Origin: Actinomycetaceae bacterium
GTDB taxonomy: Bacteria; Actinomycetota; Actinomycetes; Actinomycetales; Actinomycetaceae
Direction of reading: 5' to 3'
DNA: 64,000 nt
NCBI GenBank assembly: GCA_030532405.1
Contig: JAUNLF010000003.1
Location: 124,001-188,000 of the forward strand
This document shows, one piece after another, positions 11,163 through 31,947 of the stretch. The notes under the pieces are model-generated. The model saw only the letters and a list, made by a program, of their open reading frames with translations, was not told the origin of the DNA and ran no database searches. The position numbers and the translations under genes were made by a program. The first letter of the stretch is position 1. Every line of letters begins with the position of its first letter.

Positions 11163-11174
11163 ATCATATACGAA
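11163..11174. promoter_or_regulatory. Weak copy of the TATAC operator motif
   Basis: ATCATATACGAA differs at two positions from the consensus ATCGTATACGAT found elsewhere in the region. It is the farthest of three copies upstream of dctP1. Confidence 0.4.
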
Positions 11175-11268
11175 ATATAACGATACGGTAACGATGTAAA
11201 ATCTGACGCGCGTTAAATTTGAAAGCCTATTGCAAGGGCTGATTTTGCTGGGTAACTTAACTGCATCG

Positions 11269-11282
11269 CATCGTATACGATG
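11269..11282. promoter_or_regulatory. Perfect 14-bp palindrome, candidate GntR operator
   Basis: CATCGTATACGATG is its own reverse complement and contains the best match to the shared motif. It lies about 143 bases before the dctP1 start codon. FCD-type GntR proteins bind short palindromes of this size. Confidence 0.65.
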
Positions 11283-11378
11283 TCAGTTCTCACGATTCCT
11301 AAAGGGTGCAAAGCTGCATCCTTTTGAAATCAAATCCTTGTCAAACCCGTATTCCGTGTACCCAAAGCAGTCAATACA

Positions 11379-11390
11379 CGTGTATACACG
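11379..11390. promoter_or_regulatory. Perfect 12-bp palindrome near dctP1 start
   Basis: CGTGTATACACG is a perfect palindrome with the same GTATAC core, 35 bases upstream of the dctP1 start, where a bound repressor could block transcription. Confidence 0.5.
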
Positions 11391-11424
11391 CAACGCTTAG
11401 TTGCATTAAGAACTGGAGTAACCA

Positions 11425-12570
11425 ATGAAGAGACGTCCTCTTGCCCTTGCCTCAATTATTGGTGCCGCAGCCCTTGTAGTCTCCGCGTGCGGCGGCGGAA
11501 CCGAAGGTGGCGCCGCATCCGGTGGTGGAGCTGCCGAACAAGAACTAACCCTGGCAACCATGGCCCTCGACACCACGCCGCAGGCATACGCCGCGCGCTG
11601 GTTCTTCGACGAACTCGAAACCCGCACCGACGGCCGCGTAGTCGTCGACCAGACCGGCCCCGAAGAAGTCTGCAAGGCCGCAGAAATCGCCGAATGTGTT
11701 CGCGACGGCCGCGCCGACATCGGAATCTCCGTTGCCGACTACACCGCCCAGCTGTTCCCGGGCGAAGTAATCGTATCCGTACCGTTCCTCTCGAACTCCT
11801 CGCAGCAAGCAGTCATGAACGCCCTATGGCAGACGCACAAGCAGCACGAGGGTTCGCAAGCCAAGTGGGATGAAATCGGCCTCACGCCCGTTGCACACTG
11901 GCCCGCCGGCCGCCTAACCCTTGGCTCCAAGGACGAAATCCGCAACGTCAACGACATCAACGGAATGAAGTGGCGCGTATCGGGCCCGTACCTGGTCAAA
12001 GCATTCGAACAGGTCAACGGCAACCCGGTATCAATGCCCTCCTCCGAAACCTACGAAGCCCTGCAACGACAGGTCGCTGAAGCAGCAGCCTTCGCCATCG
12101 ACGGCGCAGTCGACTACAAGCTAGTCGAAATCCTCCCCGAATGGACCGACCCGGGCGTAGGCCACTACAACACGTTCGGCATGTGGATCAACAGCGACGT
12201 CCTCGACGGGTTCTCTGAAGAAGACCGCGCCATCTACGACGAACTCGTAGAAGAATTCAACGCCGGCAAGGGCATGGAGCTCTTCGCGGAAGGCGCATCC
12301 GAACAGTGCCAGTTCATGCTCGACCACAACAACGTCAGCAAGTTCAACCGCTGGGATGACGCCGACACCGAAGAATGGTCCAACAAGGTCCTCGACGGCC
12401 TAGTAGAAGAGTGGATCGCAGAAGCCGAGAAGAACGGCCTCACCGATGCACGCTCCTACTACGAAACCTACAAGGAACTCGTCCAAGACGTAACCCAGGA
12501 AGACCTCGATAAGGACCCGGTTATCGCCTGCGTCAACGAGTTCTACGACCAGGGCCGAAACGAGCGCTGA
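11425..12570 (+). CDS. TRAP transporter substrate-binding lipoprotein (DctP family), copy 1
   Basis: A 381-residue secreted receptor for a carboxylate. The signal peptide ends with the lipobox VVSAC, so Cys22 is the lipid anchor, followed by a Gly/Ser linker. The DctP core has DTTPQAYAARWFFDELETRT near 49-68 and the conserved Arg in the GMKWRVSGPYL segment, which in the family salt-bridges the ligand carboxylate. Two Cys (83 and 91) and further Cys in SEQCQF and VIACVN are shared with the second copy downstream and may form disulfides. It leads an operon with the two permease subunits. The nearby aromatic pathway suggests an aryl acid as ligand, but that is inference. Confidence 0.9.
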   Translation: MKRRPLALASIIGAAALVVSACGGGTEGGAASGGGAAEQELTLATMALDTTPQAYAARWFFDELETRTDGRVVVDQTGPEEVCKAAEIAECVRDGRADIGISVADYTAQLFPGEVIVSVPFLSNSSQQAVMNALWQTHKQHEGSQAKWDEIGLTPVAHWPAGRLTLGSKDEIRNVNDINGMKWRVSGPYLVKAFEQVNGNPVSMPSSETYEALQRQVAEAAAFAIDGAVDYKLVEILPEWTDPGVGHYNTFGMWINSDVLDGFSEEDRAIYDELVEEFNAGKGMELFAEGASEQCQFMLDHNNVSKFNRWDDADTEEWSNKVLDGLVEEWIAEAEKNGLTDARSYYETYKELVQDVTQEDLDKDPVIACVNEFYDQGRNER

Positions 12571-12576
12571 TAACCC

Positions 12577-13131
12577 ATGGAGCGCTTCATACGATCGATC
12601 GTATCGGGGCTCGGAATCCTAGCAACTATCGCGACCGTCATCATGATGTTCTCGATATCTGCAGATGTTTTCTATCGAGTGTTCTATAACAAGTCACTGC
12701 CCGGACTTCTGGAGATCTCGGAAACCGCACTGGTCGCGGCAGTATTCCTCGGAATGGGATACACCGCCCTCACGAACTCGCACGTTGCAGTTGACCTGCT
12801 GGTCACACGCATCAAACCAAAAATCGCGCACGTACTAATCACCATCGCCTGGGCCCTAACCTCCGGCATCGTGGGATGGATGCTATACGCAACAGTCGGG
12901 CGCGCAATGCAATCAACCGCCGAGAAAGAGGTCCGCATGGGCCTCATCGCTTGGCCACAATACCCAGCCCGCTGGATCATCGTCGTCGGACTAGCCGCAA
13001 TGTTCATCGTCGCCGTACTAAACGTCATTCGACTGCTGCGCGGCAAGAACATCTACGGTGACTCCGGCCTGGCAGAACACGAGCGCGTAGTCCAAGAAGC
13101 ACGCCAAAACGAGGAAGGAGTACAGGCATGA
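12577..13131 (+). CDS. TRAP transporter small permease subunit (DctQ family)
   Basis: A 184-residue protein with four hydrophobic segments (about 8-30, 47-65, 85-105, 128-153), the usual DctQ fold. The family motifs appear as SADVFYRVFYNKSLPGLLEISE and FLGMGYTALTNSHVAVDLL. It begins six bases after the binding-protein stop with no clear ribosome binding site, so translation is likely coupled. Its stop overlaps the large subunit start by 4 bases. DctQ joins DctM to form the sodium-driven carrier. Confidence 0.92.
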   Translation: MERFIRSIVSGLGILATIATVIMMFSISADVFYRVFYNKSLPGLLEISETALVAAVFLGMGYTALTNSHVAVDLLVTRIKPKIAHVLITIAWALTSGIVGWMLYATVGRAMQSTAEKEVRMGLIAWPQYPARWIIVVGLAAMFIVAVLNVIRLLRGKNIYGDSGLAEHERVVQEARQNEEGVQA

Positions 13132-14609
13132 GTAGCGGCGCAATCGTCCTCTTTGTCCTAATCCTCCTCATCGTCCTGCTAGCAATCCGCATGCCCGTTG
13201 CGTTCGCTCTGGGCCTGTCGGGCGCCACCGGTCTGCTCATCCTAAAGGGCGCGGGGCACACCACCAACGTGCTCGGCTCCCTACCATTTACCGAAACCGC
13301 GTCGTTCTCGCTCACCATCATCCCCATGTTCACCCTCATGGGCATGCTGGCAGTGAAAGCGCGCATCGCGGAACAAGTCTTCGCCGTAGCCGCCTACATC
13401 TTTAAGAAGGTCCCCGGCGGCCTCGGCGTAGCAGCCATCATGGCGTCAGCAGGCTTCGCGGCCGTGTCCGGCTCCTCAATCGGCACCGCGGCAACCATGT
13501 CGAAACTGTCGATCGGCCAGATGCGCAAGTACGGTTACCCGATTCCGCTTGCCTCCGCAGCCGTTGCAGTTGCAGGCACCCTGGGCGCACTAATCCCGCC
13601 CTCGGTATTCCTGGTTCTGTACGCAATCATGGTTGGCGAATCGGTCGCACAAGTGCTGGCTGCAGGTATCGTTCCCGGTATCCTCTCCGCGATCGTTTAC
13701 GCGGCGTACATGAGCTTCGCAGTAAAGCGCCACCGCGCTAAGAAGCAGGCGATTGTTGACGCTCCCGACCTGGAGTCCGCACTAGCGATTGCCTCCAACC
13801 GCGCAACCGAAGCGGATGTGAGGGCGATCCGGGAAGCTCACGTCTCTGACGGCTGGTCCTACCAGCAGCGCAACATCTCATCGGCCCCCGTACCGGACGC
13901 GCCGATGGAAGGCATCGACATCTCTAAGATCACCCGTCTTCGCGAACTGCCGTGGCGCGGTATCGCACGCTTGATCATCCTGTTCGTCATCGTGCTGGGT
14001 GGCATGTACTCGGGCGTATTCACGCCCACCGAGTCCGCCGCAATCGGCGCGCTGGCAGCCGGCATCATGCTCGCGATTGAAATGTTCCGCGACGGGCCGC
14101 GCTCCATGATTGGCGCGTTCATCGAGGCATTCAAGGAAACGGCGTCTACAACGTCGATGGTCTTCTCGATCATTGTCGGATCGGCAGTGCTGTCATCCTT
14201 CTTCGTCATGGCGAAGGTGCCGCGCATGCTCACCAACGCCGTCCTCGGCTGGGGCCTACCCGGACACCTAACCCTGGGAATCATGCTCCTCGCCCTCATC
14301 CCACTTGGAATGGCACTGGAATCAATCTCGATTCTGGTAATCACGGTTCCGCTGATCTACCCGGTCGCAATGGAACTCGGATTCTCCGGTGTTTGGCTGG
14401 CGGTCCTGATCGTCAAGCTCATCGAGATCGGCATGGTCACCCCGCCGGTTGGCATCAACTGTTTCGTTGTCGCCGGCACCGCGAACGTCAAGACCGAAGA
14501 CGTGTTCAGAGGCGTACTGCCTTTCGTTCTGCTGGACATGGCCGTACTGGTGGTCTTGTTCTTCATCCCGCAGATATCCCTGTGGCTTCCTTCGCTCGTA
14601 CAGGTTTAA
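13128..14609 (+). CDS. TRAP transporter large permease subunit (DctM family)
   Basis: A 493-residue membrane protein with the DctM pattern: MPVAFALGLSGATG near the start, GSSIGTAATMSKLSIGQMRKYGYP, PPSVFLVLYAIMVGESV, and GVFTPTESAAIGALAAG in the second half. It is longer than the usual 425-440 residues because of a hydrophilic loop at about residues 200-275 (KRHRAKKQ to RLRELPWRG) between the two inverted halves. The start codon ATG overlaps the dctQ stop. It forms the transport channel used by the two DctP proteins encoded on either side. Confidence 0.93.
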   Translation: MSSGAIVLFVLILLIVLLAIRMPVAFALGLSGATGLLILKGAGHTTNVLGSLPFTETASFSLTIIPMFTLMGMLAVKARIAEQVFAVAAYIFKKVPGGLGVAAIMASAGFAAVSGSSIGTAATMSKLSIGQMRKYGYPIPLASAAVAVAGTLGALIPPSVFLVLYAIMVGESVAQVLAAGIVPGILSAIVYAAYMSFAVKRHRAKKQAIVDAPDLESALAIASNRATEADVRAIREAHVSDGWSYQQRNISSAPVPDAPMEGIDISKITRLRELPWRGIARLIILFVIVLGGMYSGVFTPTESAAIGALAAGIMLAIEMFRDGPRSMIGAFIEAFKETASTTSMVFSIIVGSAVLSSFFVMAKVPRMLTNAVLGWGLPGHLTLGIMLLALIPLGMALESISILVITVPLIYPVAMELGFSGVWLAVLIVKLIEIGMVTPPVGINCFVVAGTANVKTEDVFRGVLPFVLLDMAVLVVLFFIPQISLWLPSLVQV

Positions 14610-14652
14610 CACCTTCGAGCCAAGGTAAATAAACGTCCTGGGCAGAGGGCGG

Positions 14653-14682
14653 GCCCCCTCGGTGCGAAAGCGCCGAGGGGGC
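14653..14682 (+). terminator. Hairpin between dctM and the second dctP
   Basis: GCCCCCTCGGTGC and GCGCCGAGGGGGC pair fully (one G-T) around a GAAA loop, followed by ATTATTAC. The T tail is weak, so it may be a partial terminator or a stabiliser that lets the downstream binding protein be expressed at another level. Confidence 0.65.
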
Positions 14683-14721
14683 ATTATTACAACCAAATCC
14701 AACGAATACAAAGAGTGGAAT

Positions 14722-15846
14722 ATGAAAACCCGAATTGCAGTAGCGGGTCTGACCGTAGGCGCAGCGATCGCTCTCAGCGCCTGTAGCGGCACGACCTCCG
14801 GAACTGGAACAGCACCCGAACACGACCTCATTCTTGCAACGATCACTGTAGACACGACCCCGCAAGCCGCTGCTATCAAGTGGTTTTTCGAAGAAGTAAA
14901 TGAACGCACCGACGGGCGCATCAATATTGACATGACGTCCCCGCAGGAAGTTTGCAAGGCGACAGAAACAGCCGAATGCGTTCGAGACGGCCGCGCTGAC
15001 ATCGGTGTCGCGCTGACCGACTATACGGCCCAACTTTTCCCCGCGGAAGTCATTGTCTCGATTCCGTTCCTATCGAACTCCTCCCAGCAGGCCACGATGA
15101 ATGCCCTTTGGCAGGCGTATAAGGAACACGAGGGCGTGCAGGCTAAGTGGGAGCAGGTCGGCCTCATCCCGGTAGGACATTGGCCGGCAGGACGACTAAC
15201 GATCGGTGCGAATCACGAGATCAACAATGTTGCCGACATGCAGGGTGACAAGTGGCGCGTGCTGGGCCCGTACCTGGTGGAGGCCTTCGAATCGATCAAC
15301 GGTAACCCCGTCTCGCTACCCGGCGCCGAGACGTACGAGGGCGTGCAGCGCGGTGTTGCAGACTCAATCTCGTGGGCAATCGACGGCGCGGTTGACTACA
15401 ACCTTGCCGAGCTTCTATCCGAATGGGCCGACCCGGGAGTCGGACAGTACAACACGTTTGGCATGTGGCTAAACCCCGACACGTACGAGCGCTTCTCTGA
15501 TGAAGACAAGAAGATCTGGGACGAGGTCGTAGAGGAGTTCAACTCCGGCAAAGGCATGGAAGTATTCGCCGAAGGAGCCGCCCACCAGTGCGACTACATG
15601 CTAGAGCACCAAAACGTGAACTCTTTCGTCAGGTGGGACGACTCCGCGGCAAAGGAATGGGAAGAAAAGATCGGCGATTCCCTGGAAAAGCAGTGGATCA
15701 GCGAAGCCGAACGCAACGGCCTCGAAGACGCGGAAGGATACCTCGAGCTCTACAAGAAGTACGTCAACGACGTTACCGCTGAAGAGCTCGAGAAAGACCC
15801 CGTCATCGCGTGCGTAAACCGCTTCGAAGCGGAGGGCAGGAATTAG
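14722..15846 (+). CDS. TRAP transporter substrate-binding lipoprotein (DctP family), copy 2
   Basis: A 374-residue receptor that aligns end to end with the binding protein at 11425-12570; by eye well over half of the residues match. The start ATG at 14722 gives a signal peptide ending in the lipobox ALSAC (Cys21); an upstream GTG at 14662 is rejected because it lies in a hairpin and gives no signal peptide. The ligand Arg segment is KWRVLGPYLVEAF, and the Cys pair EVCKATETAEC is kept. Differences near the ligand pocket (for example PGAETYEGVQRGVADSISW) suggest a different but related ligand. Its stop overlaps the convergent symporter gene by 4 bases. Confidence 0.88.
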   Translation: MKTRIAVAGLTVGAAIALSACSGTTSGTGTAPEHDLILATITVDTTPQAAAIKWFFEEVNERTDGRINIDMTSPQEVCKATETAECVRDGRADIGVALTDYTAQLFPAEVIVSIPFLSNSSQQATMNALWQAYKEHEGVQAKWEQVGLIPVGHWPAGRLTIGANHEINNVADMQGDKWRVLGPYLVEAFESINGNPVSLPGAETYEGVQRGVADSISWAIDGAVDYNLAELLSEWADPGVGQYNTFGMWLNPDTYERFSDEDKKIWDEVVEEFNSGKGMEVFAEGAAHQCDYMLEHQNVNSFVRWDDSAAKEWEEKIGDSLEKQWISEAERNGLEDAEGYLELYKKYVNDVTAEELEKDPVIACVNRFEAEGRN

Positions 15847-17258
15847 TAGCCCGCACCGAGCTCGAAGGTGGCCGGCGTGCCCGTGACCTTCTTGGACTCC
15901 ACGGCCGCCTCGAGCTCGATGTTGCCCGGAATGTCGTTCGCGTTCTTGCTCAGGTCCATCCCCGTACGGTCCTTAATGGTCGAAGTTCCGATCAGCGCGA
16001 TAAGCGTGAAGACGAACAGGTACGTGGACACCGCGAGCGTGGTGTTGAACTTGCCGAACAGGTACGTTGCGATCAGCGGCGAGAAAGCACCACCCAAAAT
16101 CGCGCCCATCGCGTAGGCCAGGCCTGCACCGGAGTAGCGCACGCGCGCCGGGAAAATCTCGGCGAACATTGCTGACTGCGGGCCGTAAGTCAGGCCAAGG
16201 CCAATGGTGAGCGGCAAAATCGCGAGGATAATCATGCTCCAACGGCCCGTGTTGATAAGCATAAATAGGGGGAACACCCAGATTAGATTCAGTACGAACC
16301 CGATCTGATACGTCCTCACACGGCCAATGCGGTCAGACAACCACGCCGAGAACATTGTGGTTACGATCCACGCTGCCGAAGCGAGCGTAATAATGTTCAG
16401 CATCCTGTTTTGATCCAGGCCCATGCCGTTAGAACCGGACGTGTAAGCCAGGATGAATCCACCCGTAATCATGTAGCCAACCACGTTGTTACCCATGAAT
16501 GCGAGGGCGCCTTGCACCAACTGTTTGCCGTTGTACTTGAACATCTTGAACAGGGGCAGGCGAAGCTGAACGTCGTCCTTCGCGACCTCTTCAAAGATGG
16601 GGGACTCGGCAACGCCAAGGCGAATAAACATGCCGACCACGATCAAAATGATCGAGAACAGGAACGGTACGCGCCAGCCCCACACGTTGAACTGGTCGCC
16701 TGAAATCGCGTGGACAACCGACAGGACGCCGGTCGCGGTCAGCATGCCTAGCGGAACGCCAACCTGCGGGAAACCGCCGTACCATCCGCGCTTGTCCGCG
16801 GGAGCGTGCTCAACAGCCATCAGGGCTGCGCCGCCCCATTCGCCGCCGGCGGAGAATCCCTGGATCACGCGCAGCAGGATCAGCAAGACCGGCGCCCACA
16901 TGCCAATGCTTTGGTACGTGGGGAGCAAACCGATTAGGACGGTAGCCGCACCCATCAGAATCAGGGTTGCGACCATCATGATTTTGCGGCCCAGCTTGTC
17001 ACCCAAATGGCCGGCAACGAGGGCGCCGAGAGGGCGGAAGAAGAAGCTGATACCAACGGTTGCGAAACCGATCAGCTGACCGAGGAACGCGTTGTCGTTG
17101 GATAGCGGGTCAAAGAACAGCGGGCCAAAGATCAGCGCTACTGCGTTTGCGTAAATGAAGAAGTCGTACCATTCAACGGTAGTACCCACCAAGGTTGCGA
17201 CGGCAACGCGGCGGTCTTCCTTCTTCTTGGTGCTCAGAATTAGGCGATCGCTAGACAC
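15843..17258 (-). CDS. MFS transporter, metabolite:H+ symporter (MHS) family
   Basis: A 471-residue protein with about twelve membrane segments. The N-terminal VATLVGTTVEWYDFFIYANA and the loop GHLGDKLGRKIMM are hallmarks of the MHS family (ShiA, ProP, KgtP); RVIQGFSAGGEWGGAALMAVEHAP is the other family signature. Members import organic acids, shikimate, proline betaine or aromatic acids by proton symport. The start is GTG with AGGAG upstream. Two or three copies of the TATAC motif lie in its promoter region, linking it to the hpa regulon. The substrate could be homoprotocatechuate or 4-hydroxyphenylacetate; that is inference. Confidence 0.9.
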   Translation of the reverse strand: MSSDRLILSTKKKEDRRVAVATLVGTTVEWYDFFIYANAVALIFGPLFFDPLSNDNAFLGQLIGFATVGISFFFRPLGALVAGHLGDKLGRKIMMVATLILMGAATVLIGLLPTYQSIGMWAPVLLILLRVIQGFSAGGEWGGAALMAVEHAPADKRGWYGGFPQVGVPLGMLTATGVLSVVHAISGDQFNVWGWRVPFLFSIILIVVGMFIRLGVAESPIFEEVAKDDVQLRLPLFKMFKYNGKQLVQGALAFMGNNVVGYMITGGFILAYTSGSNGMGLDQNRMLNIITLASAAWIVTTMFSAWLSDRIGRVRTYQIGFVLNLIWVFPLFMLINTGRWSMIILAILPLTIGLGLTYGPQSAMFAEIFPARVRYSGAGLAYAMGAILGGAFSPLIATYLFGKFNTTLAVSTYLFVFTLIALIGTSTIKDRTGMDLSKNANDIPGNIELEAAVESKKVTGTPATFELGAGY

Positions 17259-17408
17259 TTTAAACTCCTGTCCTTGGGCAGAGGGACCGACTAACCCGCC
17301 TTCAAATTGTCCCGGAGTTGTCCGATATAAAGCTGAAATCTATATGGGTGTGGCTATGCGGATCAATCGGATTCGGTATAGCTTTTCCAGGGCTGATTTG
17401 GAGTTGGG

Positions 17409-17420
17409 CTCGTATACATC
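17409..17420. promoter_or_regulatory. TATAC motif upstream of the MHS symporter (distal)
   Basis: CTCGTATACATC keeps the core TCGTATAC of the shared motif. Between it and the next copy lies a further partial match, TCGTATCGAT at 17422-17431. Confidence 0.4.
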
Positions 17421-17436
17421 GTCGTATCGATTAGAG

Positions 17437-17450
17437 CTTCGTATACGATT
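17437..17450. promoter_or_regulatory. TATAC palindrome in the symporter/regulator intergenic region
   Basis: The site TTCGTATACGAT (17438-17449) has one mismatch to ATCGTATACGAT. It lies about 180 bases upstream of the minus-strand symporter start and 78 bases downstream of the end of the GntR gene. The rest of 17259-17527 has no gene. Confidence 0.6.
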
Positions 17451-17527
17451 CTTAGTCTACCCCGCAGTGCAGGAGTCATGTTCAATTTTTAGAAGCGATT
17501 TGTTCAAATGCGTGCACGGATGTGCAT

Positions 17528-18205
17528 TTAGTATGCGGGTCGGTGTTCCACCGAAATGTATTGGCGCATTGTGCGCAGTTTGTGGTCACGAACCAGTACT
17601 TCAATATCTAACGAGGGCGCCCCTTCTTGGATGGCCTTCAAGATTTGAGCGTGCTCATTAACGGACCGCTCGGAGTACTTCGGATCAAACGCAAACGCCG
17701 ACCTACGAATGATGGTAATGCGATCCCACTCGCGCTCGAGCAGGTCGAACAGGCGGTAGTTCGGGCACCTGTGGGTAAGTAGCCGGTGGAACCGGTTATT
17801 AAGCGTGGTGAACTGGCGCGGGTCAAAAGAATCGCGCAGCATGTCTCGCATTTTTGCGTTTAGTTCTGCGGCTTCCGCCAGGTCGTCCTTTGTAGTATGC
17901 GGCATTGCGAGGGCGGTGGCATAACCTTCAAGCACGGCCATGGTTTCCATGGTTACCGCGTAATCCTTCGTGTCCACACCGGTGACAATCGCGCCGACGT
18001 TGCGCTGGAACTCGACCAGGCCTTCGGCTTCTAGGAGGCGTACCGCTTCGCGGACGGGAACGGGGGAGACGCCTAACTCGCGTGCGATTCGGTCTAGAAC
18101 TAGGCGGTATCCGGGGGAGTACTGGCCAGAGAGAATCCCCTCGTGTAGCGAACGGTAGACGCGTTCGGACTTGGAGATACCCTTTGCTTCAGCTTTTCCA
18201 GCCAT
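17528..18205 (-). CDS. GntR-family transcriptional regulator, FCD (FadR) subfamily
   Basis: A 225-residue regulator from the ATG at 18205, chosen because GTAGG precedes it; an ATG nine codons further up has no site and lies inside a palindrome. The winged helix has SKSERVYRSLHEGILSGQYSPGYRL then LDRIARELGVSPVPVREAVRLLEAEGLV. The C-terminal FCD domain carries likely metal-binding positions in NNRFHRLLTH and NEHAQILKAI. FCD regulators bind organic acids and usually repress catabolic genes. Its position between the transporters and the hpa cluster, and the repeated palindromes at their promoters, make it the best candidate regulator of the whole region. Confidence 0.9.
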   Translation of the reverse strand: MAGKAEAKGISKSERVYRSLHEGILSGQYSPGYRLVLDRIARELGVSPVPVREAVRLLEAEGLVEFQRNVGAIVTGVDTKDYAVTMETMAVLEGYATALAMPHTTKDDLAEAAELNAKMRDMLRDSFDPRQFTTLNNRFHRLLTHRCPNYRLFDLLEREWDRITIIRRSAFAFDPKYSERSVNEHAQILKAIQEGAPSLDIEVLVRDHKLRTMRQYISVEHRPAY

Positions 18206-18225
18206 CGTGCCTACTTTCCAATCGC

Positions 18226-18387: not shown

Positions 18388-19470
18388 CTAGAGCTGCTCG
18401 CCGACCTTGAAGCCCTTCTCCTGGTCGCCCTTGCGGGTGTAGGAGAAGCCGTCAGCACCAATGGTGACGTCGATTTCCTTCGGCGACTCGCGCTCGATGA
18501 GCGGAACCACGTTGCCATCCATGTCCAGCACGCGAGATGCGTCGGTGTACCAGGACGGAACGACCTGGTGGCCCCACCAGTCGCGGCGCTGGTTGTCGTG
18601 AACATCCCAGGTTACTAGCGGGTTGTCCGGGTCACCGGTGTAGTAGTCCTGAGTGTAAATCTCAACGCGGTGGCCATCGGGGTCGCGCAGGTACAGGTAG
18701 AACGCGTTGGAAACGCCGTGGCGTCCCGGGCCGCGCTCAATGTGGTCCGACATGCGCATTGCGCCGAGCTTGTCACAAATGTAGAGAATGTTGTGCTTCT
18801 CGTACGTTGCGAAAGCTACGTGGTGCATGCGCGGGCCGTCGCCGCCGGTGAGGGCGGTGTCGTGCACGGTGTGCTTGCGGCAGAACCAGGCGGCGTAGGT
18901 GACGCCGTCCTCGTCCTTAATGTCCTCGGTGCGCTTGAAGTTCAAGCCCTTTTCGAGGTATTCCGCGCCGTGTACGACGTCGGGGAACACCTGGTTGAAG
19001 TGGTCTAGACGTACGAGGGCGCCTGCACCCTGCTTGTCGTAGTCCCACATCATGCGGTGCTGGTGCTCCGTGTCGTAGAAGAACTCGTACGGGAAGCCCA
19101 GCGGGTCCTGCACGCGAACCGAGTCGCCAATGCCCTTTACGAAGCCGTCCTTCTCGCGGCGGACGTCGCAGCCCATCGCCTTGTAGAAGGCCTCCGCCTT
19201 ATCCAGCTCTTCGGGTGATCGAACGCGGAAAGAGAACACGCGGACCGCGGCCTCGTCGCCCTTGCGAAGAATCAGGTTGTGGTGGATGAATTCTTCGAAG
19301 GAACGCAGGTAGATGACCTCGTCGTCCTCGTAGGTTACGACTAGCCCAAGGGCGTCTACATAGAACTCGCGCGACTTAGCAAGGTCGGTAACGATCAGTT
19401 CCATGTAAGCGCAACGCAAAATGTCCGGCGCGGGCAGGTCGGGCAAATCGATTGCCTGGATTTCGTTCAT
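18388..19470 (-). CDS. hpaD: 3,4-dihydroxyphenylacetate 2,3-dioxygenase (homoprotocatechuate extradiol dioxygenase)
   Basis: This 360-residue enzyme opens the ring of homoprotocatechuate next to the two hydroxyls. The start at 19470 has AAGGAGG; an upstream in-frame start has none. It belongs to the two-domain vicinal oxygen chelate class, like the well studied Brevibacterium iron and Arthrobacter manganese enzymes (about 365 residues). The metal ligands expected from that family are present as His157 (RLDHFNQ), His217 (RMHHVAF) and Glu270 (GHRVEIY). Second-shell residues known from the Brevibacterium enzyme also match: Asn159, Trp195, His203, Arg246, His251, Tyr260 and Arg296. Fe or Mn cannot be told from sequence. 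It is the last gene of its operon. Confidence 0.95.
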   Translation of the reverse strand: MNEIQAIDLPDLPAPDILRCAYMELIVTDLAKSREFYVDALGLVVTYEDDEVIYLRSFEEFIHHNLILRKGDEAAVRVFSFRVRSPEELDKAEAFYKAMGCDVRREKDGFVKGIGDSVRVQDPLGFPYEFFYDTEHQHRMMWDYDKQGAGALVRLDHFNQVFPDVVHGAEYLEKGLNFKRTEDIKDEDGVTYAAWFCRKHTVHDTALTGGDGPRMHHVAFATYEKHNILYICDKLGAMRMSDHIERGPGRHGVSNAFYLYLRDPDGHRVEIYTQDYYTGDPDNPLVTWDVHDNQRRDWWGHQVVPSWYTDASRVLDMDGNVVPLIERESPKEIDVTIGADGFSYTRKGDQEKGFKVGEQL

Positions 19471-19546
19471 TGTCAGCCTCCTTTGGCTGTTTTGTGGGTT
19501 CCGGTCGGGCCCGTCCATCTTTGGAGAGCCATGTTGATTGGGTCAG

Positions 19547-21079
19547 TTAGGCGCTCGGGCCGCCGAGGCCGAGGTCGTTGTCGGCGTATCCAGTTGCACC
19601 AAAGCGCGTGGTGTGCACGTCGCCCAGTGTTACGTGGATAGCCTGCTGGTCGGAGTAGAAGTCAAGCGAGCGGTAACCGCCCTCCTGGCCGAGGCCAGAT
19701 GCCTTCACGCCGCCAAACGGGGTGCGCAAATCGCGAACGTTGTGGGAGTTAATCCACACCATTCCCGACTCGATTGCTCCCGCAAAGTTGTGCGCACGCT
19801 GGACGTTGGAAGTCCAAACGTATGCAGCGAGGCCGTATTCGACGCCGTTGGCAAGTTCGAGGGCCTCTTCTTCGGTGTCGAACGGCGTGATCGCCACGAC
19901 GGGGCCGAAAATCTCTTCCTGGAAGATACGCGCGTCCTTCGGAACATCCGCGAACGCGGTGGCCTGAACGTAGTTGCCCTTGTCCATGCCTTCGGGACGC
20001 TCACCACCTGCAATCAGGCGGGCTTCCTGCTTGCCGATCTCGATGTAGCTCATGACCTTGTCGTAGTGCTCGGGGTGAACCAGAGCGCCAATCTCGGTCT
20101 TCGGATCGGACGGGTCACCAACGATGACCTTCTTGGTGCGCTCAGCGTATGCCTCGACGAACTTGTCGTAGATTGGACGCTCAACGAGGATGCGCGAGGA
20201 CGCCGTGCAACGCTCACCGTTTAGCGAGAACACGCCGAACAGGGTGGAGTCCAGGGCGGCCTCAAAGTCAGCGTCAGCGAAGATGACGGCGGGGGACTTG
20301 CCACCGAGCTCCATAGACATCGACTTCATGTTCGGCGCGCAGTTGCCGTAAATGATCTTGCCGGTGCCAACTTCACCCGTGAACGAGATCAGGTTGACGT
20401 CCGGGTGCTTCACCAGGGAGTCACCCGCGGTCTCACCGAAACCGTGAACCATGTTGAACGCGCCCTTGGGCAGGCCCGCGCGCTCAAAGATTCCCGGCCA
20501 GAGCGATGCGGAAGTCGGGGTGAACTCCGCCGGCTTCAAAATGACGGTACAACCCGACGCGAGGGCGGGAGCAAGCTTCCAAGACTCCTGCATGAACGGG
20601 GTGTTCCACGGCGTGATCAGACCGGCAACGCCCTTCGGCTTGCGGTTCACGTAGTTGATCTGGCGGCCCGGCATCTTGAATGCGTTGTCGTGCTGGGCGA
20701 CGATCAGGTCAGCGAAGAAGCGGAAGTTCTCCGCAGCGCGGTTCGCCTGACCCTTTGCCTGGCGGATCGGAAGACCGGAGTCGAACGACTCGATAGCTGC
20801 GAGCTCTTCGTTTACCTTCGAGACCTCATCGGCAATCCGGTACAGGATCTGTGCGCGCTGGCGGGGAAGCATGCGGGGCCATTCGCCCTCATCAAATGCT
20901 TTACGCGCAGCCTTGGCGGCGCGGTCGACGTCTTCCTTGTCGCCGGATGCGCACTTGATGTAAGCCTCGTTGGTGGTCGGCTCGATTACGTCAAAGGTTT
21001 CGCCGCTTACAGAATCAACGAACTCGCCGTCGATGTAATGCTGTACGCGGTCAGGTAGGTTCTGGGGGCGCTTAGACAT
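19547..21079 (-). CDS. hpaE: 5-carboxymethyl-2-hydroxymuconate semialdehyde dehydrogenase
   Basis: A 510-residue NAD-dependent aldehyde dehydrogenase that oxidises the HpaD product. The cofactor region has GLITPWNTPFMQESWKLAPALASG, the general base Glu lies in MELGGKSPAVIF and the nucleophile Cys in NGERCTASSR. The ending with GLGQEGGYRSLDFYSDQQAIHV is typical of HpaE rather than SSADH or BADH. The ATG has AGGAGA nine bases upstream. It sits between the dioxygenase and the fused FAH-RraA gene, 37 bases after the latter, so the three form an operon. Confidence 0.93.
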   Translation of the reverse strand: MSKRPQNLPDRVQHYIDGEFVDSVSGETFDVIEPTTNEAYIKCASGDKEDVDRAAKAARKAFDEGEWPRMLPRQRAQILYRIADEVSKVNEELAAIESFDSGLPIRQAKGQANRAAENFRFFADLIVAQHDNAFKMPGRQINYVNRKPKGVAGLITPWNTPFMQESWKLAPALASGCTVILKPAEFTPTSASLWPGIFERAGLPKGAFNMVHGFGETAGDSLVKHPDVNLISFTGEVGTGKIIYGNCAPNMKSMSMELGGKSPAVIFADADFEAALDSTLFGVFSLNGERCTASSRILVERPIYDKFVEAYAERTKKVIVGDPSDPKTEIGALVHPEHYDKVMSYIEIGKQEARLIAGGERPEGMDKGNYVQATAFADVPKDARIFQEEIFGPVVAITPFDTEEEALELANGVEYGLAAYVWTSNVQRAHNFAGAIESGMVWINSHNVRDLRTPFGGVKASGLGQEGGYRSLDFYSDQQAIHVTLGDVHTTRFGATGYADNDLGLGGPSA

Positions 21080-21116: not shown

Positions 21117-22610
21117 TTAGTTACTTTGACGCTTAGTGGAGGGCAGCGGGTTGTCCTTTAGCCACTCCTCGTAGCGTTCCTTCCATTGCGGGCTGCGAAT
21201 GGGGTAGAGACCATCGACGCTGGCACCGTTTGCCACCATGTCGGCGATGAACTCTTCGCGGTGTTCTTGATCCTCTGCGGCTGCGACGACCTCTTCAACG
21301 AGGTGACGCGGGATCACGATTGCGCCGTCATCGTCAGCAACGATCACGTCGCCAACCATTACGGTCGCACCGCCGCAAGAAATCGTTACATCGTGCTCGT
21401 ACGGCACGTGACGGCGGCCCAGCACAGCGGGGTGCTGGCCTCCGCAGAAGACGGGGATTCCAACTTCCGCAACGGCAGCTGCGTCGCGGACGGCACCGTC
21501 GGTAATAATGCCGGACGCTCCGCGAACCTTGGCGCGCAGGGCGAGGATGTCACCGAGCGTGCCTGCGGTCGGGTCGCGGCGAGCTTCCATGACCAGGACT
21601 TCGCCCTCGCCAACCTTGTTGATGGCCTGCTTCTGGTGGTTGTATCCACCGCCCATCTTGTCGAACAGGTCCTTGCGGTAGGGGATGTAGCGCAGCGTGC
21701 GTGCGGTTCCGACAATCTTCATGCCGGGGCGAAGCGGGGCGACACCGTCAAAGGAGACCTCGTTGTATCCGCGGTTACGTAGCTGCACAGACAAGGTAGC
21801 GACGTGTACGTTCTCGATGCGCTTACGAAGCTCGGGATCCAGCGGGGCGGTCTGCCTTGCCTTCTCCTCTTCTTCACCAATGGGGTACCCCCACGCGTCG
21901 GAGCGCTGCTTGTCGTCAACCTTCGGCGGGTTTCCAATGTCAGCAAGTGCGGGGCCCGATACAACCTCCGTGCGAAGTTTGCCGGTGGTTACGTCCTCAT
22001 TGTCGAGGTCGAAGACCTCAACCTCGATAACCTGACCGGGTTCTGCAACGGACGCTCCCGCGGGTACGCCGGTAAGGATAATGTCGCCCTCTTCCAAAGT
22101 CAGCATGCGCGACAGGTCGGCGACCATAGTAGAGATGGAGAACAGCATGCCGGCGGTGGAGTCATCAGAGACGAGCTCGCCGTCAAGCCACGTGCGAACA
22201 CCGATGCGGTCTTCGGAAAGCTCACGGGCGTCAAGTAGCTTCGGGCCGACCGGAGTGTAACCGTCACCGGACTTGGAACGAACGTTCGAGCCCTTGTCGG
22301 CGTAACGCAGATCGTGCAAGCCCAGGTCGTTAGATGCGGTAATCCAGCCGACGTGGCTCCAGGCATCTTCCACGCTTACATTGCGTGCCGTTTTGCCGAT
22401 TACAGCGGCAACCTCGCCCTCAAAACCCAAAAGTTCGGTGCCTTCGGGACGGACGACAACATCCGAACCGGTCAGCGAAGACGGTGCCTTGAAGAAGTAG
22501 GAGGGGTGCGCGGGAGTGCGGCCCCTTTGCTCGGCACGAGACTTGTAAGACAGATGAACGGCAAAAATTTTGCCTGGGCGCTTCTTGAGAGTTTCAGTAA
22601 TGATGTCCAT
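21117..22610 (-). CDS. FAH-family hydrolase/decarboxylase fused to an RraA-like aldolase/decarboxylase domain
   Basis: A 497-residue two-domain protein. Residues 1-220 are an FAH domain like HpaG, with the metal-binding Glu64 and Glu66 (FEGEVAAVI) and Asp95 (TASNDLGLHD), then GDGYTPVGP. Residues about 260-470 are an RraA/HMG-aldolase domain with an exact D-x20-R-D motif (Asp354, Arg375, Asp376), the metal and pyruvyl site of class II RraA-type aldolases and oxaloacetate decarboxylases. An acidic linker (228-258) joins them. In E. coli HpaG two FAH repeats do decarboxylation and isomerisation; here only one FAH repeat exists, so the RraA half probably supplies a second activity. No separate HpaF isomerase is in the window. 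First gene of the hpa operon; RBS GAAGG. Confidence 0.88.
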   Translation of the reverse strand: MDIITETLKKRPGKIFAVHLSYKSRAEQRGRTPAHPSYFFKAPSSLTGSDVVVRPEGTELLGFEGEVAAVIGKTARNVSVEDAWSHVGWITASNDLGLHDLRYADKGSNVRSKSGDGYTPVGPKLLDARELSEDRIGVRTWLDGELVSDDSTAGMLFSISTMVADLSRMLTLEEGDIILTGVPAGASVAEPGQVIEVEVFDLDNEDVTTGKLRTEVVSGPALADIGNPPKVDDKQRSDAWGYPIGEEEEKARQTAPLDPELRKRIENVHVATLSVQLRNRGYNEVSFDGVAPLRPGMKIVGTARTLRYIPYRKDLFDKMGGGYNHQKQAINKVGEGEVLVMEARRDPTAGTLGDILALRAKVRGASGIITDGAVRDAAAVAEVGIPVFCGGQHPAVLGRRHVPYEHDVTISCGGATVMVGDVIVADDDGAIVIPRHLVEEVVAAAEDQEHREEFIADMVANGASVDGLYPIRSPQWKERYEEWLKDNPLPSTKRQSN

Positions 22611-22678: not shown

Positions 22679-22690
22679 ATCGTATATGAT
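22679..22690. promoter_or_regulatory. TATAC operator in the divergent hpaG/SSADH promoter
   Basis: ATCGTATATGAT matches ATCGTATACGAT at 11 of 12 positions and is embedded in a longer imperfect palindrome (22675-22694). It lies 69 bases before the fused hpaG-type gene on the minus strand. Confidence 0.6.
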
Positions 22691-22782: not shown

Positions 22783-22794
22783 ACCATATATGAT
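22783..22794. promoter_or_regulatory. Second TATA-centred site, adjacent to the SSADH start
   Basis: ACCATATATGAT matches the motif at 9 of 12 positions and contains the palindrome CATATATG. It is about 30 bases before the plus-strand dehydrogenase start. No gene is seen in 22611-22823. Confidence 0.4.
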
Positions 22795-22823: not shown

Positions 22824-24290
22824 GTGCCAAACATCGACAAAGATGAGTTACTGAAGAGCATTCCTAATCAACTATTCATCAACGGTGAATGGCGAGATTC
22901 TGCCGATGGGTCGACCCTCGACGTAATCAACCCGGCCACTGAAGAAAAGCTTGCCACCATCGCTTCGGCAAAACCCGAAGACGGAATGGACGCCCTCGCG
23001 GCGGCAAGTGAAGCGCAAAAAGAGTGGGCCCGAACCTCCTCGCGCTACCGTGCAGAACTACTTCGAGACGCGTTCGAACTCGTAATGGAACGCAAGGACG
23101 ACTTCGCGGCAATCATGACCCTAGAAATGGGTAAGCCGCTGGACCAGGCTTACGGCGAAGTCACCTACGGCGGCGAGTTCCTGCGCTGGTTCTCCGAAGG
23201 CGCCCCGCGCGTCATGGGTAACTACTACCCGACGCCGGAAGGGTCGATTCAGGTAATCACCCACAAGCGCCCGGTTGGCCCGTCCCTGCTTATTACCCCC
23301 TGGAACTTCCCGTTCGCAATGGCGACCAGGAAGGTGGCGCCCGCGCTCGCGGCCGGCTGTACCACTATTTTGAAGCCCGCCGAGATCACTCCGCTCACTT
23401 CGCTACTGTTCGTCAAGATTCTTGAGGACGTTGGCGTGCCCAAGGGTGTTGTCAACATTATTCCGACGTCGTCCACGCCGGAAATGACCGGCCCGATGAT
23501 TGCGGATGCGCGCCTGCGCAAGCTGTCCTTCACTGGATCCACGCAAGTTGGTCGCGCACTGCTGAAGGAAGCGTCGCAAAACGTACTGCGCACGTCCATG
23601 GAGCTGGGTGGTCTCGCACCGTTCATCGTGTTTGAGGACGCCGACGTTGACCTCGCGGTCGAGGCTGCGCTCGCAACGAAGATGCGCAACATGGGTGAGG
23701 CTTGCAACGCGTCCTCGCGCTTCTACGTCCACTCCGACGTGGCTGACGAGTTCACGCAAAAGTTCAGCAAGGGCATGTCCGAGCTGGTCGTTGGCGATGG
23801 AATGGAAGAGGGCGTGGATGTCGGCCCGATCGTGTCGGCAAAGCAACTGGCATCTGTTGAGGATCTGGTTACCCGCTCGCTCCAGTCGGGTGCCCGCATC
23901 GAGGTTGGCGGTCAGCGTCTGGATCGCCCGGGCTTCTTCTTCCCGCCCACAGTGCTGTCCGTGGACAGCGCGGATAACCCGCTACTGGAAGAAGAGGTGT
24001 TTGGACCGGTTGCTCCCGTGTACTCCTTCGATACCGAAGAGGAAGTGCTAGAGCTTGCAAACAAGTCCCAGTACGGCCTCGCGGGCTATGTCTACACCAA
24101 CGACATGCAGCGCGTCATCCGCCTGGGGGAGGAGCTCCAGGTGGGCATGATTGGTGTGAACTCCGGCACCATCTCGAACGCCGCGGCACCGTTTGGAGGC
24201 GTCAAGGCTTCGGGTCTGGGACGCGAAGGTGGTACGGAAGGAATTGAAGAGTTCCTAGAGACGATTTATATCGGTACTCCGCGCGGCTAA
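22824..24290 (+). CDS. Succinate semialdehyde dehydrogenase
   Basis: A 488-residue aldehyde dehydrogenase of the GabD type, oxidising succinate semialdehyde to succinate. The cofactor segment is LLITPWNFPFAMATRKVAPALAAG, the base Glu is in MELGGLAPFIVF, and the nucleophile Cys in NMGEACNASSRF, all in GabD form. The start is GTG with AAGGAG. In the homoprotocatechuate pathway HpaI releases succinate semialdehyde, so this enzyme would finish the route to the TCA cycle. It is transcribed away from the hpa operon across a shared operator region, which supports the assignment over GABA catabolism; no GabT is nearby. Confidence 0.9.
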   Translation: MPNIDKDELLKSIPNQLFINGEWRDSADGSTLDVINPATEEKLATIASAKPEDGMDALAAASEAQKEWARTSSRYRAELLRDAFELVMERKDDFAAIMTLEMGKPLDQAYGEVTYGGEFLRWFSEGAPRVMGNYYPTPEGSIQVITHKRPVGPSLLITPWNFPFAMATRKVAPALAAGCTTILKPAEITPLTSLLFVKILEDVGVPKGVVNIIPTSSTPEMTGPMIADARLRKLSFTGSTQVGRALLKEASQNVLRTSMELGGLAPFIVFEDADVDLAVEAALATKMRNMGEACNASSRFYVHSDVADEFTQKFSKGMSELVVGDGMEEGVDVGPIVSAKQLASVEDLVTRSLQSGARIEVGGQRLDRPGFFFPPTVLSVDSADNPLLEEEVFGPVAPVYSFDTEEEVLELANKSQYGLAGYVYTNDMQRVIRLGEELQVGMIGVNSGTISNAAAPFGGVKASGLGREGGTEGIEEFLETIYIGTPRG

Positions 24291-26084: not shown

Positions 26085-26089
26085 AGGCT

Positions 26090-26114
26090 AGCGCTCGGAA
26101 TGGATCCGAGCGCT
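26090..26114 (+). repeat. Stem-loop between betB and betA
   Basis: AGCGCTCGGA and TCCGAGCGCT pair perfectly around ATGGA. No T run follows, so it may protect the upstream message or reduce read-through within the operon. The remaining bases to 26241 are GC-rich with an RBS-like AGAAAGGC before betA. Confidence 0.6.
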
Positions 26115-26241
26115 TAACCTTGTAGCGCTCATCGCGCCCGCGGATGCAGTTTGCGGGCTGTGCGCGGCGGGGCAGCCCCACACGCGGGGGCGCGGCCTTT
26201 GCCGAAACTTTGAAAATTGAAGGTTAGACAGAAAGGCACTC

Positions 26242-27987: not shown

Positions 27988-27992
27988 AACCA

Positions 27993-30059: not shown

Positions 30060-30065
30060 CCGCAG

Positions 30066-30097
30066 CGCCGGCCCGGGCAGTTTTGCCTGGGCCGGCG
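30066..30097 (+). terminator. GC-rich hairpin after betT
   Basis: CGCCGGCCCGGGCA and TGCCTGGGCCGGCG pair with one mismatch around a GTTT loop, starting six bases after the betT stop. Confidence 0.6.
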
Positions 30098-30146
30098 TAG
30101 GCCGGCTATTTGCTCGCCAGTTTCGCCTGGTACCGGCTGGTAGGTA

Positions 30147-30202
30147 GCGAAAATCCCCTTCAAGTTTTCCGTCAAGTTGCGGATTCTTGAAGGGGATTTC
30201 GC
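30147..30202. terminator. Bidirectional terminator between betT and hpaI
   Basis: AAATCCCCTTCAAG (30151-30164) and CTTGAAGGGGATTT (30186-30199) are perfect arms with a 21-base loop, flanked by GCGA/TTCGC that nearly extend the stem. It lies between convergent genes and has A/T tracts on both sides. Confidence 0.75.
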
Positions 30203-30260
30203 GTTTGAGGGCGAGCCTCGGCTCGGGTGGGCAGACCCGTGGCCCCGGCTCGCGCTTTGG

Positions 30261-31070
30261 TTAGTATCCGGCGGGCTCGGGGCCTCCGGAGTCGCCCAGG
30301 AACTCGGCTGCCAGGGCTTCGGACCCGCGCGCGAGGATCGTGACGTCCGCGCCAACTAGCACGAAGTCCGCGCCGGCCTCAATGTATTCGCGGGCAACGT
30401 CGGGGTTGAACGCGTTGGTGCCGACCGGCTTTCCGGCCGCCTTGGCGGCTGCGATGCAGTGCTTGACGCGCGACTTGACCTCGTCGTCAGTGGCCTGCCC
30501 GATAATACCCAGGTCGGCCGCGAGGTCCGCGGGCCCCACAAAGATTGCGTCCACGCCGTCCACAGCCAGGATTTCTTCAACTTGTTCCACAGCCTGCGCG
30601 GATTCAATCTGACAAATCAAGGTGATGGTCTCGCGCGCCCTCGTCAAATAATTCGGAATACGATTCCACATTGACGCGCGTGCGAGGGCGGACCCAACTC
30701 CGCGAACGCCCGTGTCAGGGTAGTCCACGCGCTTCGCGGCGAGTTCCGCCATCTCCTTGGTGTGAACCATCGGGACAAGCAGGTTACGCACGCCGAGGTC
30801 CAAGTATTGCTTTATGAGGCGCTCATCGTTGATCGGCACGCGCACAATCGTCGACGACGGGTAGGCCTGCACCGCGTGAAGCTGGTGGAGCAAACTCGTG
30901 AGGTCGTTGGGGGAGTGCTCCGCGTCAATGAGGACGTAGTCAAGCCCGGCCGAAGCGCAGATCTCCGCGGTAAGCGGGGACGCCGCGCACGCCCACATAC
31001 CGATCAGGGCGCGGCCCTCGTCCTCAATATGTTGAACGAGAGTGCGGGGAGGTTCTAGTTGAACTGGCAT
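30261..31070 (-). CDS. hpaI: 4-hydroxy-2-oxoheptane-1,7-dioate aldolase (HpcH/HpaI)
   Basis: A 269-residue metal-dependent class II pyruvate aldolase, cleaving the hydrated intermediate to pyruvate and succinate semialdehyde. The start at 31070 gives [10 protein letters not shown] and overlaps hpaH by 16 bases; earlier in-frame codons add residues not found in the family. The catalytic His52 is in VLIDAEHSPND, Arg77 in STIVRVPI, the metal-binding Glu in LICQIESAQAV and Asp in DAIFVGPADLAAD. Length fits E. coli HpaI (about 262). It is the distal gene of a two-gene operon with hpaH. Confidence 0.93.
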   Translation of the reverse strand: MPVQLEPPRTLVQHIEDEGRALIGMWACAASPLTAEICASAGLDYVLIDAEHSPNDLTSLLHQLHAVQAYPSSTIVRVPINDERLIKQYLDLGVRNLLVPMVHTKEMAELAAKRVDYPDTGVRGVGSALARASMWNRIPNYLTRARETITLICQIESAQAVEQVEEILAVDGVDAIFVGPADLAADLGIIGQATDDEVKSRVKHCIAAAKAAGKPVGTNAFNPDVAREYIEAGADFVLVGADVTILARGSEALAAEFLGDSGGPEPAGY

Positions 31071-31840
31071 GTGATTGTTCCTAGCTGTCCGTAGTCGGCA
31101 ACAACCGAGTCGCCCTTGTAAACCCACATTGGCCTCGTGAACGATCCGGCCAGGATGATCTCGCCGGCACCCAGGAAGTCGTCGTGCGGCGCAATCTTGT
31201 TCGCCAGCCAGTGCACGCCGGCTGCCGGGTGGTTTAGAACGCCCGCGGCAACACCGGTTTCCTCGATCTCCTGATTGCGGTAAAGCATTGCAGAAATCCA
31301 GCGAAGATCGACCTCATTCACGCGAATCGGACGACCGCCGATAACCATCGCACCCATCGCCGCGTTATCCGAAATGGTGTCGACGATTGTGCGCCCCTCC
31401 ATTTCAATGCGCGAATCCAAGATCTCAAGCGCGGGAACAATCCACTTTGTGGAATCGAGGACGTCAAAGATGGTCGCGTTCGGACCCTTAATATCTTTTT
31501 CGAGGACGAACGCGAGCTCAACCTCGATACGCGGATGGGTGTAATCATCCCAGTTGAACACGGACCCGGTTTCAAAGACCATGTCATCAAAAATGACGCC
31601 GTAGTCGGGCTCGTCGATTCCGGTTGCGTACTGCATCGCCTTTGAAGTCAGGCCGATCTTACGACCGACCAGTTTGCGGCCGCGCTCCTCGTTACGCGCG
31701 CGCCACAGGCGCTGGACCGCGTAGGAATCTTCGACCACCATGTCCGGGTAGCGGGCGGTAAGTAGCGGAACGGGTTTGCGATCTTCTTTAGCTTTAACTA
31801 GCTCATCCGCGATGGATTCGATCGTTTTCGGATCCAGCAT
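31055..31840 (-). CDS. hpaH: 2-oxo-hept-4-ene-1,7-dioate hydratase
   Basis: A 261-residue enzyme of the hydratase/decarboxylase branch of the FAH superfamily (MhpD/HpaH). It hydrates the diene acid before aldol cleavage. The metal ligand pattern is in [14 protein letters not shown] and later [32 protein letters not shown] is the family N-terminal motif. HpaH proteins are about 265 residues. It is the first gene of hpaH-hpaI, transcribed from a promoter with a near-perfect TATAC-type site, so it probably belongs to the same regulon as hpaG-hpaE-hpaD although bet genes lie between. Confidence 0.93.
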
Positions 31841-31931
31841 GACGCCTCCTTGAGTCTGTGGATTTGGGTTCCCGGGCGCTCTTTCTGGGCGGTTGCGCAG
31901 GTGGGGCCGGTGAACCCTGTGGGCTTATTTG

Positions 31932-31947
31932 AAATCGTACACGATTT
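31932..31947. promoter_or_regulatory. Operator-like palindrome upstream of hpaH
   Basis: AAATCGT and ACGATTT are 7-bp arms around AC; the inner 12 bases ATCGTACACGAT differ from ATCGTATACGAT at one position. It lies about 92 bases before the hpaH start, between hpaH and proC. Confidence 0.6.

Follow-up and report, generated by a model that had tools for sequence, protein, structure and literature searches.

A palindrome predicted to be the operator of an FCD-type GntR regulator of homoprotocatechuate catabolism in Gleimia

VanR (Atu1419) of Agrobacterium fabrum has a role in aromatic-acid catabolism, and HpaR of Escherichia coli C is a MarR-family protein. The former combines the GntR and FCD folds (6z74, 6za3), is known in complex with palindromic DNA and is titled a repressor, and the latter regulates a homoprotocatechuate cluster that is induced by 4-hydroxyphenylacetate or homoprotocatechuate (PMC3053370). 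In the hpaGLEDHI cluster of Corynebacterium aurimucosum, a regulatory gene, hpaL, is located between hpaG and hpaE and has been proposed to take part in the control of the pathway; the passages concerned contain no mention of GntR and no operator (PMC2830990). Apart from that mention, none of the papers listed in searches of the open-licence PMC literature, judged on titles and abstract openings, deals with the regulator or the operator described below. The present analysis concerns a stretch of 64,000 nucleotides of an Actinomycetaceae bacterium (contig JAUNLF010000003.1, positions 124,001 to 188,000), hereafter the window, which is part of a 2.23-Mb genome (G000, the own genome) of the genus Gleimia. 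A palindrome recurs there upstream of transport genes and of genes for homoprotocatechuate (hpa) catabolism, and it is very probably the operator of the GntR/FCD regulator encoded among them (17528..18205, minus strand, frame open from 18232), which would act as a repressor relieved by an acid of the pathway.

The locus shares different features with each of these systems. The regulator carries a GntR winged helix (PF00392, 56 versus 27 bits) and an FCD domain (PF07729, 71 versus 24 bits) alone, and differs in this from HpaR of E. coli C; an HpaR-type assignment was rejected in the absence of a MarR domain, as was PhnR (TIGR03338), its best NCBIfam match (87.8 against a cut-off of 271.5). VanR resembles it by fold, with 25-27% identity in the fold alignment, and belongs to a different pathway. 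The likeness to hpaL is one of position: in most of the clusters examined, though not in Gleimia, gntR is located between hpaG and hpaE. In Paenarthrobacter aurescens TC1 (pTC2) and Rhodococcus sp. NBC_00297, plasmid-borne hpa clusters likewise encode a fumarylacetoacetate hydrolase (FAA)-type protein, a GntR protein, HpaE, a hydratase, an aldolase and an FAD monooxygenase, and each 18.6-kb stretch has one site scoring at least 8, in the divergent promoter. Their divergent monooxygenase adjoins the cluster, whereas that of Gleimia is located elsewhere in the genome.

The operator consensus, (A)TC(G/A)TATA(C/T)GA(T), is palindromic. A position matrix trained on 38 hpaG upstream sites of relatives from the same order, with no Gleimia in the training set, identifies six strong sites in the window. 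Two are found in the promoter of the TRAP transporter operon, operator 1 at 11163..11174 (ATCATATACGAA, score 17.4) and operator 2 at 11270..11281 (ATCGTATACGAT, 20.4), the latter 143 bp before dctP. The promoter of the MHS symporter gene has one at 17438..17449 (TTCGTATACGAT, 16.3), 179 bp before the gene, and the divergent promoters of hpaG and of the succinate-semialdehyde dehydrogenase (SSADH) gene have one each, at 22679..22690 (ATCGTATATGAT, 22.2; 68 bp before hpaG) and 22783..22794 (ACCATATATGAT, 11.7; 29 bp before the SSADH gene). The sixth, at 31934..31945 (ATCGTACACGAT, 17.4), precedes hpaH by 93 bp in the hpaHI promoter. The next position in the window scores 7.0. A sequence-only reading of the window had reported eight copies, the best four at 11270, 17438, 22679 and 31934, where they were indeed recovered; six of the eight hold (two TRAP, one MHS, two hpaG/SSADH, one hpaH), and the third TRAP and second MHS copies, which had been reported with no positions, are unsupported, all remaining positions of the window scoring 7.0 or less. 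The candidates for these two copies, at 11375, 11378, 17406, 17410 and 17422, score -27 to -59 and were rejected.

Whether such matches could arise by chance was assessed in several ways. Counted loosely, with up to three mismatches, the consensus has 20 matches in the window where 14.7 are expected. As many as 20 occur in 13 of 100 shuffles, so that the excess is not significant, which is what would be seen if the palindrome had arisen by chance or were part of promoters common to AT-rich upstream regions. That explanation is nevertheless scarcely credible, since the matrix derived from the outgroup finds its six matches exclusively in four promoters, with a clear drop to 7.0, since only one of 500 column-permuted palindromic matrices gives six or more window sites (mean 0.49, largest 8), and since the motif recurs across families. 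In a consensus-free ranking of the 1024 ten-base palindromes over 47 hpaG upstream regions from outside Gleimia, TCGTATACGA came first, with 18 regions (mean 0.86).

The link between the palindrome and the regulator was examined in 47 hpaD-bearing genomes taken from 198 genomes of the order, the selection being independent of gntR; a usable hpaG upstream region was available in 46 of these, L195 being left out as cut. An operator with at most two mismatches within 400 bp upstream of hpaG is present in 37 of the 41 clusters with gntR and in none of the five without it (Fisher p 9e-5), and 33 of 42 loci with gntR, against none of five without, have a site anywhere with at most one mismatch. The frequent order of the cluster is hpaG-gntR-hpaE-hpaD-hpaH-hpaI, with the operator immediately before hpaG, and the regulator accompanies homoprotocatechuate genes in the Actinomycetaceae, Micrococcaceae, Microbacteriaceae and Nocardiaceae. 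In Geobacillus, gntR homologues with 40-43% identity occur near hpa genes; none of the five measured upstream regions of hpaG matches has a site within two mismatches. Two of these loci, L057 and L059, have a site just before gntR, and L059 has further, more distant ones.

This co-occurrence supports the GntR protein as the partner of the palindrome, which it is predicted to bind, in agreement with the sequence-only reading, which had named the product of 17528-18205 as the regulator. An alternative is that the palindrome is bound by a regulator encoded elsewhere and that the GntR protein of the operon controls something else. Genome G054 (L216-L218) is consistent with this, as it has three exact ATCGTATACGAT sites, or nine when one mismatch is allowed, with no GntR match at E 1e-30, and another regulator may use the same or a similar word in that genome. 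For the loci at hand the alternative is very unlikely, given that the clusters without this gntR are also without the motif, that gntR is located inside or beside the hpa genes in hpa-bearing loci, and that 40 kb of Gleimia G004, in which gntR is interrupted by an in-frame stop, contain no site scoring at least 8.

Assignment of the palindromes to the local GntR protein is accompanied by strong conservation within Gleimia. The promoter alignments for hpaG-SSADH, hpaH, TRAP and a distant monooxygenase gene (6, 7, 5 and 5 sequences, respectively) have diverged to a mean column identity of 36 to 63%, and the palindromes in them are invariant or nearly so; the other long invariant blocks are start codons and ribosome-binding sites. 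In the hpaG operator, 11 of 12 positions are invariant across all six Gleimia aligned. The hpaH operator retains TACACGATT in all seven, including G010, which lacks hpaH, and TRAP operator 2 retains ATCGTATACGA in all five. Spacing is conserved as well: the two TRAP operators are 107-110 bp apart in all five species in which TRAP was found (G002, G003, G007 and G008 among them), and the operators of hpaG and SSADH are separated by 102-104 bp in five of six Gleimia and by 134 bp in G003. The counterpart of the SSADH operator, the weakest of the six in the window, scores at least 15 in all five other hpa-bearing Gleimia. Where transporters are exchanged, the operator goes with each of them, since of the two the fetched clusters show MHS alone in G001, TRAP alone in G003, G007 and G008, and both in the window. 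In G001, GTCGTATACGAT (11.8) is found before its mhs gene; this genome also has a site (11.8) in the interval from mhs to leuS and, more distant, a weak one (8.2). G007 and G010 have one weak extra site apiece. The assembly of G002 is fragmented and gntR was not found in it; its three sites with at most one mismatch all precede a gene of the system (hpaG, dctP and hpaH).

A search with the operator led to a probable entry hydroxylase far from the cluster. In the own genome, a site at C31:264198 (matrix score 17.2) lies 59 bp before a gene for a 640-residue FAD monooxygenase (L136:2270-4192, contig C31) of the phenol hydroxylase or MobA type (FAD_binding_3, 197 bits; Phe_hydrox_dim, 166 bits; PRK08294, 908 versus 560). 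An operator with at most two mismatches is present 58-73 bp upstream of this gene in all six hpa-bearing Gleimia, and in G003 the gene is on the same contig as the hpa cluster, about 390 kb away. Among 59 genomes, the own included, the monooxygenase and hpaD are found in the identical 19, in 14 of which the 450 bp preceding the monooxygenase gene contain an operator. In other actinobacteria the gene often adjoins the cluster (56 of the 105 stretches scanned, a set that includes hpa-free stretches), as in Nesterenkonia loci such as L029, where it follows hpaI. HpaB (PF11794) had no match in the 11 Gleimia genomes by a search that matched 6 of 14 control genomes; over the 59 genomes it exceeds the cut-off only in G031, which also has the monooxygenase, and seven others are below threshold, four of them hpaD-bearing. 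The monooxygenase is probably the missing ring hydroxylase, and it is predicted to make homoprotocatechuate from a hydroxyphenylacetate, be it the 3- or the 4-isomer.

It could instead have a separate task, for example with 3-hydroxybenzoate or phenol, and share the operator only on account of a product that enters another route. Its nearest solved relative by sequence is the 3-hydroxybenzoate hydroxylase 2dkh (MobA), with a near full-length match (E 9e-168), and its family model is named phenol 2-monooxygenase. The exact coincidence with hpaD, the recurrence of the gene in the stretches scanned (some of them hpa-free) and the near absence of HpaB make a separate task rather unlikely, and 2dkh would then differ from the Gleimia enzyme in acting on 3-hydroxybenzoate and not in homoprotocatechuate catabolism. 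A comparable gap is described for Arthrobacter arilaitensis, in whose genome paper a 4-hydroxyphenylacetate 3-monooxygenase gene was not located, though the strain uses tyrosine (PMC2991359). The regulon spanning transport and homoprotocatechuate catabolism that had been proposed from the window alone is supported for the four promoters named; its extent was underestimated, as it reaches past the window.

FCD metal sites as a rule consist of one Asp and three His residues, and the operators of FCD-type GntR proteins are commonly palindromic with a GT..AC core. The TCGTATACGA-type matrix agrees with such a core at the level of sequence (38 sites), and in the regulator the FCD histidines H140, H185 and H208 are invariant, while the first position of the metal site appears to be N136 rather than Asp. 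An AlphaFold2 model of the regulator (mean pLDDT 84, pTM 0.65) has an N-terminal winged helix and a C-terminal FCD domain that is helical throughout, with helices over residues 79-218. The nearest solved folds include Listeria Lar, A. fabrum VanR with palindromic DNA and PmiR, with TM-scores near 0.5, values probably due to a differing or uncertain arrangement of the two domains.

Repression lifted by a pathway acid is the usual mode for such proteins. In the proposed mechanism, the FCD-GntR protein, encoded behind hpaG, hpaE and hpaD, would act on the palindromes as a dimeric repressor. When substrate is lacking it would occupy the operators, one of them over a -10-like element at hpaG, and limit expression of the TRAP and MHS transporters, of the genes for ring cleavage and the lower pathway (hpaGED, hpaHI, SSADH) and of the distant MobA-like FAD monooxygenase, which would supply homoprotocatechuate. 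A pathway acid, most likely homoprotocatechuate or a hydroxyphenylacetate, would enter the FCD pocket and cause release from the DNA. The repressor mode is suggested by the hpaG operator (22679), which overlaps a -10-like TATCAT, an overlap to be read with a promoter scan that is overall not above chance. An activator or a dual-mode regulator would fit the TRAP operators, whose spacing of 107-110 bp is compatible with activation or looping, as are the distances of 143 bp (TRAP) and 179 bp (MHS) from site to start codon. We consider it unlikely in view of the TATCAT overlap at hpaG, of the SSADH operator only 29 bp from the start codon, and of VanR, whose fold is related and which is titled a repressor in the PDB.

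The specificity of the motif was assessed across genomes. The own genome has four sites with at most one mismatch, all four within the cluster of the window, and over the 64 kb the matrix detects no sites beyond the six, so that the motif is not equally dense in unrelated promoters. The six Gleimia with hpa genes have 30 such sites, of which 21 are located ahead of genes of the cluster or of the distant monooxygenase gene (4/4 in G000, 4/9 in G001, 3/3 in G002, 2/2 in G003, 4/5 in G007 and 4/7 in G008), and the five Gleimia without hpaD have 11 altogether. The remaining sites form a background of approximately 0-5 per genome that is present in pathway-free genomes too, at least one site being found in 34 of the 59 genomes. 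The exact core TCRTATAYGA occurs at ten places in the own genome: four in the window, one at the monooxygenase, one at sucC, two within coding sequence and two with low scores. The same search gave 147 places with one mismatch, part of which are listed, and it differs from a whole-genome matrix scan. The sites at C12:74669 (matrix score 9.5) and C12:148928 (4.3) are weak. Sites at C12:40133 and C4:23700, in frames read by eye as gyrB/parE and pth (labels not derived from searches), are coding and were taken as chance, as was the CTCGTATACGCT site of G001 and G010, which lies within a frame read by eye as an ABC permease.

Several observations weigh against the identification of the palindrome as the operator of this regulator. 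The training sites of the matrix were the best match per region to the consensus of the sequence-only reading (at most three mismatches), which favours that consensus, and in the ranking of the 1024 palindromes a GC-rich palindrome came second with 17 regions. All five control loci without gntR belong to one genus. Four clusters with gntR lack the hpaG operator; in L133 the operon begins with hpaH and a site precedes that gene, and L135, L197 and L211 have no site within two mismatches upstream of hpaG. Genomes free of gntR matches also have such near-exact sites (at most one mismatch), G011, G026, G027 and G033 having three apiece, five of the nine in G001 precede neither a cluster gene nor the monooxygenase, and the site at C4:23700, strong at 15.8, is inside a coding frame. 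A site in the 450 bp ahead of the monooxygenase is present in only 22 of the 56 stretches that contain this gene, and the promoter scan yields no more promoter-like sites than shuffles. Taken with the remaining evidence, the sequence-only reading was right in substance.

Two genes of succinate metabolism are further candidates. A site at C29:12486 of the own genome (L285:1986-1997, matrix score 14.6) lies 67 bp before the sucC open frame and approximately 190 bp before the start suggested by conservation. The corresponding block scores 14.6 in G000, 14.2 in G003, 11.3 in G007, 9.6 in G002, 9.3 in G010, 8.7 in G001 and 3.6 in G008, i.e. at least 8.7 in six of the seven Gleimia that possess hpa genes or a close stop-free gntR, and at most 0.5 in G004, G005, G006 and G009; shuffles of the block reach 8.7 in 22 of 2100 cases. 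The three hpaD-bearing relatives examined outside Gleimia (G015, G040 and G041) have no sucC site. A site 34 bp upstream of sdhC is present in G000, G001, G002 and G010 and is missing at that position in G003-G008, with only a weak match 142 bp upstream in G007 and G008 (7.0 and 5.9). The sucC gene may be a further target of the regulon, and sdhC a possible one that is less sure. A flavin reductase gene (PF01613) of the own genome has a site 31 bp upstream (C18:57255, L138:1756-1767, score 18.4); four relatives with the gene (G001, G002, G007 and G008) have no site within two mismatches, and membership is not claimed.

The genes of the window were assigned as follows. The TRAP genes, on the plus strand, are dctP for a solute-binding protein (11425..12570, PF03480), dctQ for the small permease (12577..13131, PF04290), dctM for the large permease (13128..14609, PF06808) and a gene for a second dctP-like solute-binding protein (14662..15846, PF03480). 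On the minus strand are the genes for the MHS-type MFS symporter (15843..17258, PF07690; top NCBIfam match TIGR00883 with 381.5 bits, under the cut-off of 443.45), for HpaD, a homoprotocatechuate 2,3-dioxygenase of the glyoxalase-fold type (18388..19518; TIGR02295, 412 against a cut-off of 321), for HpaE, the 5-carboxymethyl-2-hydroxymuconate semialdehyde (CHMS) dehydrogenase (19547..21079; TIGR02299, 648 against 638), for an HpaG-like protein that combines an FAA hydrolase with an RraA-like domain (21117..22610; PF01557 and PF03737; PRK12764, 718 versus 444), for an HpaI-like aldolase (30261..31127, PF03328; TIGR02311 is the best model, yet 294.5 is under its cut-off of 368.8) and for HpaH, the 2-oxo-hept-4-ene-1,7-dioate hydratase (31055..31840; TIGR02312, 360 against 351). 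The SSADH-like gene is on the plus strand (22824..24290, PF00171; top NCBIfam match TIGR01780 with 538.6, under the cut-off of 646). Of the homoprotocatechuate meta-cleavage pathway, HpaD, HpaE and HpaH all pass curated NCBIfam cut-offs. The protein in the HpaG position fails as a two-domain HpaG of the E. coli type (TIGR02303, 131.5 against a cut-off of 276.4), being an FAA-RraA fusion instead. The HpaF isomerase (PF02962) had no match in the own genome in a search in which the control genomes were equally silent, and the RraA part of the fusion may be the decarboxylase. Genes for choline dehydrogenase, aldehyde dehydrogenase and BetT (24594-30059) are located between the SSADH gene and hpaI and are operator-free, and the same choline/betaine block occupies this location in G003, G007 and G008. 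The sequence-only reading had seen no motif upstream of the bet operon, and no position in its surroundings reaches a matrix score of 8.

The Gleimia genomes without hpa genes differ in what they retain. G010 (L116-L117) has a stop-free gntR frame and a site where hpaH used to be, and G004 (L118-L119) has a gntR with one in-frame TAG. G005, G006 and G009 (L120-L122) have orphan, fast-evolving regulators, either decaying or with a new role, in the order leuS-gntR-proC, with no site scoring at least 8 in 20 kb; in the tree these diverged regulators group with those of other Gleimia on a long stem of 1.44 changes per column (support 80/97). The series from G010 (stop-free gntR, sdhC and sucC sites) through G004 (gntR stop, none of these sites) to G005, G006 and G009 (fast-evolving gntR, none of these sites where searched) is the ground for a reading in terms of stepwise erosion. 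It is suggested tentatively, with the balance somewhat on the side of doubt, that Gleimia has a single FCD-GntR regulon scattered over the genome, that it covers uptake, a single-component MobA-like flavin monooxygenase replacing HpaBC as the actinobacterial entry hydroxylase, meta-cleavage and succinate-using enzymes (sucC and perhaps sdhC), and that it erodes stepwise upon loss of the pathway.

The predicted regulon is new and has a defined operator, the FCD-GntR type itself being already known. An operator for the regulator that accompanies homoprotocatechuate genes would be usable to find pathway genes distant from the cluster. Its wider interest is that it points to a probable entry hydroxylase and to regulon decay where the pathway has been lost, for which Gleimia would offer a small natural experiment.

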